Notes under the pieces: generated by a model
Told to the model about the DNA's origin: nothing
Seen by the model: the letters and a program-made list of their open reading frames with translations, nothing else
Database searches by the model: none
Translations under genes and position numbers: made by a program
DNA from: Phycisphaerae bacterium
GTDB lineage: Bacteria; Planctomycetota; Phycisphaerae; Sedimentisphaerales; Anaerobacaceae
NCBI GenBank assembly: GCA_017993835.1
Contig: JAGOLX010000022.1
Span: forward strand, 1 to 64,000
DNA length: 64,000 bases
Direction: 5' to 3'
In this document: piece after piece, positions 48,865 to 55,907 of the stretch
Position numbering within the stretch: the first letter of the stretch is position 1
Layout of the letters: each line of letters opens with the position of its first letter

Positions 48865-50142
48865 ATGTCCAGATTGCATCTTGCACCTGCAATCCTCGTC
48901 GTTATCCTGTCGTCGTCGGCGACGGCCGAAGTGCAGGTCAATGTCCGAACCAGCGACGCCCAGGCCAATTGCGCGATCGCCCTGGATCCAAACGGAGGCG
49001 CCCTGGTCGTCTGGAGCAGCTACTATTCCACACCCGGGCGGTCTCATGACATCCTCGCCCGCAGGCTCGACGCGACCGGCGTCCCTGTAGGCGACGAGTC
49101 TATCGTGAACACCATCGACGAGGGGAGCCAAACGGAACCCGCCGTGGCCACGGATCCCCAGGGTCGTCTTGCCGTGGTCTGGCAAGGCGCCGGGACCCAG
49201 GAGGATGTCTTCTCAAGGCTGTACGACTCCCAAGGGATTCCCCTTACAGACGATCTGCTCGTCAATCTGGCGACTGCGGGCCGACAGCTCTATCCGTGCA
49301 TCACAACGGGCGACGCCGGCATCTTCCTGGTCGCCTGGGAGAGTCGAGAAACCGTCGCAGACCAAGACCATGCCTTTGTATACGCCCATCGCTTCGACCT
49401 GAACGGCGCCGGCCTTGGCGGCGACATTCTCGTCGATCCCAACAAGTACGATTGCCGCTATCCGGATGTCGCCATGGATGCTCGCGGCAACTTCGCTGTG
49501 GTGTGGATGCGCGACAGGTCGATCCACCCGATCATGGCCAGACTGTTCGATCCAAACGGCGCCCCACGCACCGATGTCTTCACAGTCAATGCGACGAGCG
49601 TCGCCTCCGTCACGCGTCCATCCGTTGCGATGAACGCGCGTGGATACTTCGTCATTGCCTGGGACGGCGATCCAAACGCAGCGGCCCAGGACGATATTCA
49701 CGCGAGGTTCTACGATCCGAGCGGGATCCCCAGGGGCGAGCCATTCGTCGTCAATACGACCCGCGCCGGCGCCCAGCAGTGGCCACAGGCGGCAATCAAC
49801 GATGCCAACGAATTCGTCATCGTCTGGGAGCACGACAGCGATGATCCGAATACAGCCACCAATGTCTTCGCTCGTCGCTTTGACGCGGATGGCCAGCCCA
49901 TGGGCGAAGAGACCCGGCTCAATGCCCATACGCTAGACAAACAGCGGTATGCGGATGTCGCGATGACTGCCGATGGCTCCTTCTTCGCTGTCTGGGAAAG
50001 CAACAACCAGGATGGCTCCGGCTACGGCGTCTTCGCCCACTTCGAGCCGCCGGCGGACCCCAACGAATCCATGATGGATGCGGACGCCTTCCAGGCCGTC
50101 CCGGACGAGTCTCTGGAATCCCCAGGTAACTGTCGGCCCTGA
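48865..50142 (+). CDS. Secreted beta-propeller-like repeat protein
   Basis: 425 residues from ATG 48865 (GGAGG upstream). Signal peptide to about residue 21. The rest is six to seven repeats of about 55 residues, each built as ...VNTxxxG.QxxPxVAxDxxGxFxVVWxxxxxDxxxxxIxARxFDxxGxP...; for example AMNARGYFVIAWDGDPNAAA and AINDANEFVIVWEHDSDDPN. This alternating pattern suggests a propeller, probably calcium-binding (many Asp). No sorting tail is present and it ends in an acidic segment, so it may be released. Long leader upstream. Confidence 0.8.
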   Translation: MSRLHLAPAILVVILSSSATAEVQVNVRTSDAQANCAIALDPNGGALVVWSSYYSTPGRSHDILARRLDATGVPVGDESIVNTIDEGSQTEPAVATDPQGRLAVVWQGAGTQEDVFSRLYDSQGIPLTDDLLVNLATAGRQLYPCITTGDAGIFLVAWESRETVADQDHAFVYAHRFDLNGAGLGGDILVDPNKYDCRYPDVAMDARGNFAVVWMRDRSIHPIMARLFDPNGAPRTDVFTVNATSVASVTRPSVAMNARGYFVIAWDGDPNAAAQDDIHARFYDPSGIPRGEPFVVNTTRAGAQQWPQAAINDANEFVIVWEHDSDDPNTATNVFARRFDADGQPMGEETRLNAHTLDKQRYADVAMTADGSFFAVWESNNQDGSGYGVFAHFEPPADPNESMMDADAFQAVPDESLESPGNCRP

Positions 50143-50455: not shown

Positions 50456-51505
50456 TTACTCCTCGACGGGAACCAGGGTGCCGAACAGTTGGATTTCGGC
50501 AATCTGCATCGAGTTGTCCGTGGCGTCCTTCACGGTCTCAAAGATGACCTTGTAGGAGGCGAAGGGCTCCGCCTGGTTGGCGACGACGTACACCAGACCC
50601 GCCGTGAAGCGTTCAGCGGGCAGTGCCAGCGTGCCGCCGCAAATCAGCGTCCAGTTCTCGCTGAGGCCGTCGCCATTGTCCGGGGTGACGATCACATCGT
50701 TGGTGCCGTAGATCATCCAGACGACCGGGTCGCGCTGCGGATGATCGTTGGCGGTCGTGATCTGGAAGCTGTCGAGCATGGAGGGACCGACCAGCGGGGT
50801 GACGATGAAGCCCGAGTCATCCTCGCCGAAGTTGAGGTACTTGGTGTTCACGTCGCCATCGATGCACTTGGCCGGGGCTTCATTCGCCGGATACCGGCTC
50901 TGCCAACCCTGCTCGACCGCGAGGATGGCGTTGCCGACCGCCAGGACGTTGCCGCCCACGGCATCGGGCAGCGGGTAGAATGCCACGTCGGCGATCTGCA
51001 TTGAGCTGGCGCCCTTCGTCGTCGGGAAGAGCATCTTGAAGGACGTGTAGACCTCGAAGCTCTCGAACGAGACCACCGGGCCGACCGTCAGCCGCTCTGC
51101 AGGCAGCGCGATGGTGCCCGAGGCGATGAGCGTCCAGTTCTCGGCCGTCCCTGTGCTGTTGTCGGCGCTGGTGATCGCATCGTTGGTCCCGTAGAGCTCC
51201 CACGTGGCGGGGTCACGAGTCTCTGAATCGTTGGCGGTAGTGATGACGAAGCTCTGCACCATGATGCCTTGCGCGGGCGTGACGATGAAGCCGCTGCCGG
51301 GTCCGCCGCCGTTGAAGTACTTGGTGGCCGAACTGCCATCCAGGATGTTGGCGGGCGACTCGGCCGCCGGGTAGCTGCTGCTCGAAACCAGCCCGTCGGA
51401 ATCGACCGCGATCAGGAGATCATTGGGACCCAGGATAGCCTCTCCGAACACCGGACTGGCCATCACCGACGCCGCCAGAAGAACAAGAATCATTCCGCGT
51501 CTCAT
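50456..51505 (-). CDS. Secreted protein with two discoidin-like (F5/8 type C) repeats
   Basis: 349 residues from ATG 51505 (GGAGG upstream). Signal peptide to about residue 22. Two tandem domains (about 27-180 and 185-345) share a pattern: NDLLIAVDSDG / GNAILAVEQGW, AxxxPAxxxDGxxxTKYxNxG, SGFIVTPxxGxxMxxSFxITTANDxxxRDPxxWxxYGTND and a final MQIAxxxFxxxP. F5/8-type folds bind glycans on a cell surface. No CTERM tail. Monocistronic. Confidence 0.88.
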   Translation of the reverse strand: MRRGMILVLLAASVMASPVFGEAILGPNDLLIAVDSDGLVSSSSYPAAESPANILDGSSATKYFNGGGPGSGFIVTPAQGIMVQSFVITTANDSETRDPATWELYGTNDAITSADNSTGTAENWTLIASGTIALPAERLTVGPVVSFESFEVYTSFKMLFPTTKGASSMQIADVAFYPLPDAVGGNVLAVGNAILAVEQGWQSRYPANEAPAKCIDGDVNTKYLNFGEDDSGFIVTPLVGPSMLDSFQITTANDHPQRDPVVWMIYGTNDVIVTPDNGDGLSENWTLICGGTLALPAERFTAGLVYVVANQAEPFASYKVIFETVKDATDNSMQIAEIQLFGTLVPVEE

Positions 51506-51624
51506 TGTGGTACACCTCCATCTTTCCAATTTTCTCTTCTTCAGGACCAGCACACCTCATCCATGACATGCACTGTCCCCACACTGCCACACCTCGGAGC
51601 CTACGATCCATAGCTTCTGGCTTT

Positions 51625-51691: not shown

Positions 51692-51720
51692 TTGACAATG
51701 GCCGCCGGGCGTCCTACAAT
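51692..51720 (+). promoter_or_regulatory. Promoter of the RCC1-protein operon
   Basis: TTGACA - 17 bases - TACAAT: consensus -35 and spacing. Predicted start near 51727, leader about 270 bases to the ATG at 51998. The 492-base gap 51506-51997 holds the two divergent promoters and this leader; I see no other gene. Confidence 0.8.
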
Positions 51721-51997
51721 CCACGGTGCAATATGGGTGGAACGACGGGGGAACGCGTCGCCAAGCCGTTGGCTGCCCCCGGTCTCAAGGGCAAGGTCGT
51801 TCGGAACGCCGCACGGACCTCCCCACGCACTGACCGCCTGCCCCTGAGAGAATCGCCGATACGCAGGAAGGATGGGTGGTGCAGCAATCACGCAGGGATC
51901 GGGCCTCCGAAGAGACAACACGCACTGGGTAATAATCGCATTCATAGCCATAATCTATGTGTTCGAGTCCGGGTGAATCGTTGAAGGAGGAGAAGAC

Positions 51998-54900
51998 ATG
52001 TCCGCCGGTCATGAAGCATCAATCTGTTCCCTTGTATCGCTCCTTCTGGCAGCCGCAATAGGCGGCACGGGTCTGGGCGCCGGCGCTGGCCAGATGGCCG
52101 GCGGCGATTTCAGCATCGTCGTCAAGCCGGACGGAACCGCCTGGGCCTGGGGGTACAACGCCGATGGAGAATTGGGCAACGGCGCCACGGTCAGCAGTCC
52201 CGTACCTGTTCAGGTCGGAAAGACAGTCTGGGCGGGCAGGAAGGTCGTGGCCGTAGCGTCAGGGCTGTGCCACACCCTGGCGATTGTGGACAACGGCGAC
52301 GGAACCTCCTCCATCTACGGCTGGGGAGATGACTCCCACTCGCAAATCGCCCATGGAGGCATCGATTCCAGCACCCCTGTTCTGATTTCGGATTCGACCT
52401 GGAGCGGCAAAGAGGTCCTCGCCGTCGCGTGCGGAGACTACCACAGTCTCGTTCTTCTCACAGACAACGGTGCAACGGAGGTGTGGGCCTGGGGTCGGAA
52501 TGTCAGCGGACAACTCGGTCTGGGCGTGTTCAGCCTCGCCGTCTCCACACCCACGCGGATCACAGGCCTGGACGCTCGAACGATCACGAGCATCGCCGCT
52601 GGAGCGGACTACAGTCTCGCCCTGGACGACGGCGGCCTGGTCTACACATGGGGGAACAACTCGCATGGCCAGCTTGGAGACGGCTCGCATACGGATCGGA
52701 GCGTCCCGCAGAGCATGGCGGGCCTGTCCGGTATCGACGGCGTGGGCGCGGGGGGAGATTTCTGCGTCGCCTGGTCCCTCCGAACGAATACGGCGTGGGC
52801 CTGGGGACGCAACGACCGCGGTCAGCTCTGTCTGGGCAATGATACCACCGACAAGCTGACTCCGGTCTACGTGGCGGACCTTGACGTCATCGGCACCATC
52901 ACGGACATTCGGGCGGGCCAGTCTCACGCCATCGCCTTGATCGCAGGCGGCGTCTACGCCTGGGGGGACAATACCGCCGGCAAGCTGGCCTTGCCGTCGG
53001 ATTCGACTCCCTACAGATCAACGCCCGTTGAGGTCATGGGCGGCTGGTCGGAGGTCGCCGCCATCGGGGTCGGAAAAGACCACAGCTTCGTCAGGGATGC
53101 CAACGGCCTGGTCTGGACGTGGGGAAGCAACACGTATGGGCAGTTGGGCACTGGGAACGCGGGGACCCTCGTGACGGCGGAGTCTCTCGGACTCTCCGAT
53201 ATCAAGGATGTCCCCGCAGCCGGAGGCAAGCACAACCTCGTGCTGGTCACGGACGCGACGGACGGGAAGAAGAAGGTCCAGTCCTGGGGAGACAACGCCT
53301 GCGGACAGCTTGGCATCGGTCCGGCGCCGAGCGTCGTGTCGGCGCCTGTCTTGACGGCGCCTGAACAAGAGGCGGATTCCGTGGCGGCGGGAGACAACCA
53401 CAGTCTCGCCCTGTTCAAGTCCCGAGTGTGGGCCTGGGGCGACAACACCTATGGGCAACTGGGTCTGGGCACACACGTCGGCGTTGACACCCCCACAGCG
53501 ATCGCAGGGTTGAGCGCGCAGACCATTGTGAGTATCGCCGCGGGAGCCGACTACAGTGTCGCTGTGGACGACAGCGGCCTCGTCTACACCTGGGGCGACA
53601 ACTCGCACGGTCAGTTGGGAGATCCCTCCCGGGCGGATGGGAGCATTCCGCAGAGCATCGCGAGCCTGTTCGGCGTCGAGGGCGTGGCCGCAGGGGCCGA
53701 TTTCTGCTTTGTCTGGTCCACCGCGACGAATGCCGTGTGGGCCTGGGGCAACAACGACCATGGCCAGCTTTGCCTTGGCAATACGACGAATGAGCCGGCT
53801 TGCGTGTCCGTGACGGAACTGCCCGCTCTCGGGACCATCACGGACATTCACGCGGGCCAGTCCCACGCACTGGCCCTGGTCGAAGGCGTCGTCTATGCCT
53901 GGGGGAACAACGCCGCCGGCCAGTTGGGCCTGCCGAACTCGACCGCGCACCGCACGACGCCGATCCCGGTCAGCAACCTGCCGAGCGACATCGTCAAGAT
54001 CGCGGCGGGCTCCAATCACAGTCTTGCCATCGATTCGACGGGACGACTCTACGGCTGGGGCGACAACAGCTCGGGACAGCTCGGCGCAGGCGTCCTCGTC
54101 GTGGAAACGCCCAGAGAGATCGCGCTTCCCTCGGGAACGATTGCCGCGGACGTCGCCGCCGGAAGTGAGTTGACTCTCGTCCTGGCCGACACCGGGGAAG
54201 TGTTCGTCTTCGGAAACTGGCTGGGGCATTCCGACGACACAGGCGTCGATTCCGTGCACAGCTTCCCGGCCAGCCTGGAACTGGCGGTGAACCCTGCCGA
54301 GGGGGGGACCATTGACGTGACCAGAGGGCAGATCTTCTTCGGGGAGACAATTGAAGTGGCCGTTACGCCCAGCGATCCATACCGGCTTGACAGTTGGACG
54401 GGCAGCGCGGTGACAGCCGGCCTGGTCGACGCGAACGCTCCCGAGGTCGTGTCATTCCCCATTGACCGGGACGGCTACACCCTCCAGGCGAACCTGATCA
54501 ATACGTGTACGCTGACGATCCAGGTTCAGGGCCATGGTACGGTGGTTCCCGCTGCGGGCAGTCATAGCTATGTCATCGGCACCACGATTTTCTGTACGGC
54601 CAAACCTGACCCAGACTACCATGTGATGTGGCAGAGCACCTGTCCTATCGCAGGGCAGGAAACCAGCAAGACCGTGTCGTTTGAGATCACGGGCGATTGC
54701 ACCTTGACCGCCGTGTTCGATGTGAACATGCCGACGTTCGTCGATCCGAATCTCAAGGACGCAGTCGCAGCAACGCTCGGCGTCGCTGAACCCAATGTGA
54801 TCGACATGTCGAACCTCACGAAACTCATCGCGACCGGCAACGGGATCGTGGACTTGACGGGACTCGAGTCCGCGACGAACCTCACCTGGCTCGACCTCAA

Positions 54901-55207
54901 AACCAACCGCATCACAGATATCTCCCCGCTGAGCCAGCTCACGAAGCTGAAAGTCCTGAATCTGAGGGACAACCCCCTTGCGGACTCCGCCTTCCCTCAG
55001 ATCAGCGGCCTGACGAGCCTGCTGGAGCTGGTGCTCAGGAATACGAACGACAGCGTACAGGACGTTCCCAACGCATGGCCGACGAGTCTCACGAGGCTGG
55101 TGAACCTGGACCTGCGAGGCAACGACGGCCTGCGCCTGAGCGATACCCATGTCGGGTTGATGAAAACGATCTGTGTGAGCAATGGCGGCACACTCGCGGT
55201 GGACTGA
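51998..55207 (+). CDS. Secreted multi-domain protein: 14 RCC1 repeats, two B-repeats, leucine-rich repeats
   Basis: 1069 residues from ATG 51998 (GGAGGAG upstream). Signal peptide to about residue 25. Residues about 30-755 contain exactly 14 W-G-x-N/D repeat marks (AWGYN, GWGDD, AWGRN, TWGNN ...), fitting two seven-bladed RCC1 propellers. The second copies the first: SIAAGADYSLALDDGGLVYTWG recurs as SIAAGADYSVAVDDSGLVYTWG about 313 residues later. Then come two InlB-type B-repeats (NPAEGGTIDVTRGQIFFGE, VQGHGTVVPAAGSHSYVIG) and a C-terminal leucine-rich repeat block (LTWLDLKTNRITDISPLSQL). It looks like an adhesion or surface-binding protein. No sorting tail. Co-transcribed with a beta-barrel gene 25 bases downstream. 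Confidence 0.9.
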   Translation: MSAGHEASICSLVSLLLAAAIGGTGLGAGAGQMAGGDFSIVVKPDGTAWAWGYNADGELGNGATVSSPVPVQVGKTVWAGRKVVAVASGLCHTLAIVDNGDGTSSIYGWGDDSHSQIAHGGIDSSTPVLISDSTWSGKEVLAVACGDYHSLVLLTDNGATEVWAWGRNVSGQLGLGVFSLAVSTPTRITGLDARTITSIAAGADYSLALDDGGLVYTWGNNSHGQLGDGSHTDRSVPQSMAGLSGIDGVGAGGDFCVAWSLRTNTAWAWGRNDRGQLCLGNDTTDKLTPVYVADLDVIGTITDIRAGQSHAIALIAGGVYAWGDNTAGKLALPSDSTPYRSTPVEVMGGWSEVAAIGVGKDHSFVRDANGLVWTWGSNTYGQLGTGNAGTLVTAESLGLSDIKDVPAAGGKHNLVLVTDATDGKKKVQSWGDNACGQLGIGPAPSVVSAPVLTAPEQEADSVAAGDNHSLALFKSRVWAWGDNTYGQLGLGTHVGVDTPTAIAGLSAQTIVSIAAGADYSVAVDDSGLVYTWGDNSHGQLGDPSRADGSIPQSIASLFGVEGVAAGADFCFVWSTATNAVWAWGNNDHGQLCLGNTTNEPACVSVTELPALGTITDIHAGQSHALALVEGVVYAWGNNAAGQLGLPNSTAHRTTPIPVSNLPSDIVKIAAGSNHSLAIDSTGRLYGWGDNSSGQLGAGVLVVETPREIALPSGTIAADVAAGSELTLVLADTGEVFVFGNWLGHSDDTGVDSVHSFPASLELAVNPAEGGTIDVTRGQIFFGETIEVAVTPSDPYRLDSWTGSAVTAGLVDANAPEVVSFPIDRDGYTLQANLINTCTLTIQVQGHGTVVPAAGSHSYVIGTTIFCTAKPDPDYHVMWQSTCPIAGQETSKTVSFEITGDCTLTAVFDVNMPTFVDPNLKDAVAATLGVAEPNVIDMSNLTKLIATGNGIVDLTGLESATNLTWLDLKTNRITDISPLSQLTKLKVLNLRDNPLADSAFPQISGLTSLLELVLRNTNDSVQDVPNAWPTSLTRLVNLDLRGNDGLRLSDTHVGLMKTICVSNGGTLAVD

Positions 55208-55232
55208 CCGCGGAGGCAAAAGGAGAGAATTC

Positions 55233-55907
55233 ATGAAACGATCCGTCTTTGTGTGTTTGGTGCTGGCGAGCCTGTTTTCGGGGAGCGCCTTGGCTGGGGA
55301 GTGGGAGTTCACAGGCGCGATGAACAACTTCTTTCCCAGCGACGACGTCTGGGAGGGCTATGCCATCGGGGGCGAGGTCCGCGGCGCCTACTGGCTGACG
55401 CCTCAATGGGGTGTCGGACTCGCGGGTGGACTGACGAACTGGGACGCAGACGACAATACCGAAGTGATCTCCCGAAATGAGGAGCTGGGCACACAGGTCA
55501 GTCTAACGTCAGGGGGAGATGTCACGTACCTCCCGTTTGGAATCTCCGCCATGGCGAGGTTCGGGACGACCGCCAAGAACAGACTCAACGGTTATGCCGA
55601 GGTCGGCCTGCGATACATGTTCAGTGATTCAGACATGCAGGTCAAGCGGACGGCAACCTTCGCCAGCGATGATCCCATCGTCGAATGCCACGAGATCGAT
55701 TGCGACGACGGCATCGTGGCTCGCATCGGCGGAGGCGTCGAGTGGGCACTGAACGACGCGGACCACCCGGTGAAGCTGGTGCTCGTCGGCGGCTATCAGT
55801 TCGATCTGGACAAGGGCGACGCCACCGAGGACCAGTGGGACATCGACGAGGAATTGAGCCTGGAAGCCTTCTACATCGATCTTGGCCTGGTTGTCCCGAT
55901 TCACTGA
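55233..55907 (+). CDS. Outer-membrane beta-barrel protein
   Basis: 224 residues from ATG 55233 (AAAAGGAG upstream). Signal peptide to about residue 21 (LASLFSGSALAG). The rest alternates hydrophobic and polar residues with aromatic girdles in about eight strands (YAIGGEVRGAYWLTPQWGVG, VGLRYMFSD, VLVGGYQFDLD, LSLEAFYIDLGLVVPIH), as in eight-stranded OmpW/OMP_b-brl proteins. An acidic, Cys-pair loop (VECHEIDCDDG) is probably outside. It may anchor or present the RCC1 protein encoded 25 bases upstream. Confidence 0.85.
   Translation: MKRSVFVCLVLASLFSGSALAGEWEFTGAMNNFFPSDDVWEGYAIGGEVRGAYWLTPQWGVGLAGGLTNWDADDNTEVISRNEELGTQVSLTSGGDVTYLPFGISAMARFGTTAKNRLNGYAEVGLRYMFSDSDMQVKRTATFASDDPIVECHEIDCDDGIVARIGGGVEWALNDADHPVKLVLVGGYQFDLDKGDATEDQWDIDEELSLEAFYIDLGLVVPIH

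Follow-up and report, generated by a model that had tools for sequence, protein, structure and literature searches.

In two-partner secretion and in inverse autotransporters, a passenger protein is paired with an outer-membrane barrel. A second relevant group is formed by the RCC1/BLIP-II beta-propellers (UVR8, RPGR, HERC2 and BLIP-II), whose repeat signature, units of ~52 aa and seven-bladed fold are shared by the protein described below. Amplification of blades, mostly bacterial, has already been described in this group (PMC9218822), and an RCC1-repeat protein was reported among the outer-membrane-vesicle proteins of Myxococcus xanthus (PMC4158809). Proteins of such kind are usually annotated domain by domain, and the way in which they are held at the surface is often unknown.

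The window analyzed here, that is, the whole stretch of 64,000 nt from a Phycisphaerae bacterium, contains at 51998-55207 (+ strand) a genuine ORF that has a good ribosome-binding site, starts with ATG and codes for a protein of 1069 aa. In Pfam searches, RCC1 repeats were followed by two divergent InlB B-repeats and then by leucine-rich repeats (LRRs). A preliminary description of this DNA had called the domain series uncommon, and the scan of relatives agreed: among 84 other RCC1 proteins, B-repeats were found in two and LRRs in none (as several records were clipped by short flanks, this zero is an estimate). Some of the 84 carried domains of other kinds that serve at the surface or in sorting (Por_Secre_tail, SLH and dockerin, among others). 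RCC1-LRR fusion as a known widespread architecture was ruled out by the same scan (0/84, several clipped by short flanks). In addition, no orthologue of the whole protein was detected among eight congeners, where the best matches were weak.

At the N-terminus, a hydrophobic helix was predicted at residues 6-21, and the leader is atypical in that the stretch ahead of this helix has neither Lys nor Arg. The earlier designation as a secreted protein thus found support in the helix but not in the residues preceding it, and export, judged from sequence, is plausible rather than certain. A promoter-like TTGACA-17-TACAAT element (51692-51720, + strand), which is a consensus match only, agrees with 11 of 12 consensus positions and lies ~280 nt ahead of the start codon. 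Two other leader-bearing proteins are encoded in the window: one of 365 aa (50456-51553, - strand), whose two halves resemble each other and which matches F5/8 type C weakly, and one of 425 aa (48865-50142, + strand), in which AVVW-like segments recur and Pfam matched nothing. Features of the locus and of the related loci discussed below are listed in the table.

Table. Features of the RCC1-LRR locus (positions in the window) and arrangement of the four LRR-barrel gene pairs
Feature	Position or gap	Strand	Basis
Shine-Dalgarno-like AAGGAGGAG	51984..51992	+	ahead of ATG at 51998; read in sequence
1069-aa protein: leader, two RCC1 propellers, B-repeats, LRR	51998..55207	+	ORF; Pfam
Hydrophobic N-terminal leader, likely export signal (residues 1-31)	51998..52090	+	predicted helix 6-21; inference
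Predicted propeller 1, RCC1 units 1-7 (residues 32-401)	52091..53200	+	AF2 model; UVR8 match
Copied block, first copy, late unit 3 to unit 6 (residues 148-345)	52439..53032	+	sliding identity; DNA repeats D1 + D4
Predicted propeller 2, RCC1 units 8-14 (residues 402-762), unit 14 degenerate (FGNW)	53201..54283	+	AF2 model; RPGR match
Copied block, second copy, late unit 9 to unit 12 (residues 467-657)	53396..53968	+	sliding identity; DNA repeats D1 + D4; spacing 939-942 nt
Two divergent InlB B-repeats (Flg_new_2), residues 764-909, probable spacer	54287..54724	+	Pfam E 3e-17, two stretches
C-terminal internalin-like LRR domain, residues 910-1069	54725..55204	+	LRR_4 (Pfam); internalins among PDB sequence matches
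Shine-Dalgarno-like AAGGAGAG	55220..55227	+	ahead of barrel gene; read in sequence
224-aa small outer-membrane beta-barrel-like protein with leader	55233..55907	+	25 nt downstream of 1069-aa gene; OMP_b-brl match below cut-off; hhalign
G000 (here): RCC1-B-LRR upstream of barrel	gap 25 nt	same strand	
G021: GLUG-DUF11-LRR upstream of barrel	gap 20 nt	same strand	
G052: GLUG-B-LRR upstream of barrel	gap 77 nt	same strand	
G053: LRR end clipped by contig edge, upstream of barrel	gap 39 nt	same strand	

The RCC1 array consists of 14 units. Exactly 14 W-G-x-N/D marks had been counted initially; the repeat number stands, but only 13 of the marks are strict (residues 51, 109, 165, 218, 269, 322, 375, 430, 480, 532, 583, 635 and 687), and unit 14 has a degenerate F-G-N-W at residue 738. 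Pfam RCC1 matched 13 stretches (E 4e-136) and WD40_RLD was also found (E 7e-151), and the protein scored above the curated cut-offs for RCC1-like beta-propellers (PF00415, 444 bits vs 21.7; PF25390, 503 vs 150). In an AlphaFold2 model built from an alignment with 31 related arrays, which had themselves been selected for 14 repeats, the array formed two separate, side-by-side seven-bladed propellers (residues ~31-401 and ~400-762) with a border near residue 401. The pLDDT was mostly 80-97 across residues 34-740, and the LRR was modelled with middling confidence only. In VIA-align comparisons, propeller 1 matched UVR8 (6xzl; Z 54.8, rmsd 1.6 over 354, model residues 28-399) and propeller 2 matched RPGR (4jhn; Z 46.0, rmsd 1.8 over 325, model residues 399-732). 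Neither the model nor these matches point to one 14-bladed or irregular ring. Two rings of seven blades each, as proposed in the preliminary description, are what structure prediction returned as well. Repeat counts among relatives cluster at 7, 14, 21 and 28, and arrays with 14 repeats occur commonly in Myxococcota, Bacteroidota, Bacillota and others; since such arrays are frequent across bacterial phyla, tandem seven-bladed propellers as such are ordinary.

The B-repeats were assigned to Flg_new_2 over two stretches (62.8 bits vs a cut-off of 23.6). The LRR that follows resembles those of internalins; however, the protein as a whole scored 39.6 bits with NCBIfam internalin_H, far under the cut-off of 1050, and by this comparison is not an internalin. 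The LRR tail of our protein and that of G021 are reciprocal best matches (47% over 156 aa, extending to the final residue). Those of G052 and G053 are further removed, with neither being closest to these two, so that only the G000 and G021 tails are clearly orthologous. An adjacent pair of LRR plus B-repeat genes elsewhere in the same genome (L137:2675-7764, contig C62) shares long stretches that are almost identical (98% over 300 nt, spacing 2552) and has the look of a recent tandem duplication.

Immediately downstream lies the gene for the barrel-like protein. Its match to Pfam OMP_b-brl (E 9e-4, 19.8 bits) is below the cut-off of 28.7, and the other three members of the barrel-like family had no Pfam barrel match. 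A profile of four relatives, compared by hhalign with an OMP_b-brl set from the same genomes, gave a probability of 93.9% over 181 columns; the wider barrel sets were matched, whereas the A6 barrel pair alone was not. Profile searches of the barrel against solved structures yielded nothing up to E 1, and the single-sequence structure model had a pLDDT of 31. We regard the product, with moderate confidence, as a putative small outer-membrane barrel. With 224 aa and no POTRA match in Pfam, it is unlike the large, POTRA-bearing barrels of two-partner secretion (type Vb), and by analogy with them it is probably too small to serve as the export pore.

The barrel gene was detected in 4 of the 161 genomes of the order, representing three genera. 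No further genome with it was found in samples of 294 genomes of the phylum and 397 of the class, and no relative outside the family turned up in these samples. In all four cases, the same-strand gene immediately upstream ends in an LRR, at a distance of 20-77 nt, although the sample is small and two of the four cases come from one genus. The flanks of the four loci are different (FtsX permease, SSF symporter, FtsK/SpoIIIE and Maf). Because LRR_4 matches occur in just ~7-11 reading frames per genome, finding four of four by chance is very unlikely, even with two sharing a genus. Two other LRR proteins (L125 and L128) had no barrel-like gene downstream, and their ends are dockerin-like by eye. 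A cysteine link between the LRR and the barrel was not apparent: the barrels have one invariant Cys, and no consistent partner position was found in the LRR tails.

We are inclined to regard the two genes as a unit. The first would encode a binding protein that is exported and probably exposed at the surface, and the second its partner, a small beta-barrel of the outer membrane. The leader would export the 1069-aa protein, the propellers would bind a ligand, either protein or glycan, and the B-repeats would serve as a stalk. By associating with the barrel, the LRR tail would keep the protein attached to the outer membrane. Such units appear to have exchangeable fronts, as GLUG repeats occur in two related units in place of the RCC1 propellers seen here. 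From the domain types, a role in adhesion or prey binding is plausible. A bolder and more tentative proposal is that the pairs constitute a compact display system of one bacterial family, in which the barrel may be a dedicated dock for the C-terminal LRR and the fronts might be swapped between lineages while tail and barrel stay together. The conserved LRR tail and the barrel gene are, in any case, a concrete candidate for a surface anchor, and the pairing suggests a little-known way to hold exchangeable binding domains at the bacterial surface.

It is possible, if somewhat doubtful, that the protein is an ordinary bacterial tandem-propeller surface protein of the RCC1 type whose barrel neighbor is coincidental or merely co-inherited. 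The abundance of 14-repeat arrays in other phyla, some with varied add-on domains, fits this explanation; on the other hand, each of the four barrels sits immediately behind a same-strand gene with an LRR end, and both flanks and fronts differ between the cases. Less probable still is a fully released protein, a diffusible inhibitor or binder comparable to BLIP-II, with a separate role for the barrel. BLIP-II has the same propeller fold and was among the fold matches (Z 28, 34-35% identity). However, it is a single small propeller that lacks B-repeats and LRR, and the LRR tail and constant neighbor of our protein point to attachment, although neither argument is decisive.

The origin of the two propellers could be addressed from the similarity among their blades. 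The preliminary description had noted a copied block of high identity ~313 residues apart and taken it as evidence of a whole-propeller duplication. Two stretches (SIAAGADYS...LVYTWG) are indeed unusually alike, but their distance of ~314 residues corresponds to six units, not seven. Identity of the unit pairs in this register was 56% (3/9), 75% (4/10), 58% (5/11) and 63% (6/12). In the unit-by-unit comparison, mean unit identity was highest at offset 6 (50%), whereas offset 7 (36%) was at background, all other offsets giving 31-39%. When units 1-7 were rotated over units 8-14 (n=7), one rotation scored 115 and the other six 52-58; rotation 0, the register expected from a whole-propeller copy, scored 52. 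Upon shuffling of unit order, the observed maximum was reached in 222 of 20,000 trials. In no other array of the comparison was the best offset so far ahead of the second.

In nucleotide sequence, the copies share 75% identity over stretches of 300 and 155 nt, which are spaced 942 and 939 nt apart. The similarity is limited to residues ~148-345 vs 467-657 (50-81% per window of the sliding comparison; 19-50% outside). For units 4-6 and 10-12, the counterpart in the other ring is a better match than every unit from the fetched relatives; no such clear preference was seen for units 3 and 9. A whole-propeller duplication is thus unsupported, because the copied block comprises ~four blades at six-blade spacing, which occupy different blade positions in the two rings. 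The simplest reading of these sequences is that one ring received a copy of ~four blades from the other with a shift of one blade, by unequal crossover or gene conversion, and that the propellers probably diversified in this way. It is also possible that six units were duplicated in tandem and that the ends have since diverged. That a single seven-bladed propeller was copied whole, head to tail, is very improbable: two such propellers are predicted, a copied block is present and offset 7 is the best register in some relatives (e.g., L042, 58% vs 52%), but here offset 6 is far above offset 7, the likeness spans only ~four blades and a forced alignment of units 1-7 on 8-14 falls back into the six-unit register. 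An older whole-propeller copy that was later overwritten is conceivable, though the visible similarity already contradicts the whole-propeller reading. Copying of ~four blades out of register would mean that tandem propellers in one chain can swap blades out of step and still form two full seven-bladed rings. Such exchange fits the view that blades, and not whole propellers, are the unit of amplification (PMC9218822).

Eleven further RCC1 arrays of the same order (L021, L022, L024, L025, L028, L029, L031, L034, L035, L037 and L038) have shorter units of ~38 aa with a mean mutual identity of ~60-78%, suggesting recent amplification of single units. A second RCC1 protein is encoded in the same genome (L138:2254-4014, - strand, contig C111). 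It has 586 aa and short units, and ends in DUF5648, a C-terminal domain different from the LRR of the 1069-aa protein.

The fold and the repeat family are well known, whereas neither the domain order of the 1069-aa protein nor the LRR-barrel pairing was found in the open-access papers searched. Compared with UVR8, RPGR, HERC2 and BLIP-II, the protein has two propellers per chain, is likely exported and is fused to B-repeats and an LRR, and nothing around it points to a Ran, UV or ubiquitin-ligase context. The tandem RCC1 arrays of other bacteria (including Myxococcota, Hymenobacter and Paenibacillus) resemble it in having 14 repeats, with 27-38% identity across the array, but none of the 84 has an LRR, and our protein has the strongest six-unit signal in the compared set. 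With the internalins that contain B-repeats it shares the LRR type and the InlB-type B-repeat, although its LRR is short and C-terminal and NCBIfam internalin scores are far under cut-off. Compared with two-partner secretion and inverse autotransporters, the barrel is small (~200 aa), has no POTRA match and is encoded by a separate gene. It is closest to the small OmpX/OmpA-type barrels (OMP_b-brl) in size, leader and the hhalign match, but differs from them in scoring under the Pfam cut-off and in being tied to an LRR-ended neighbor.
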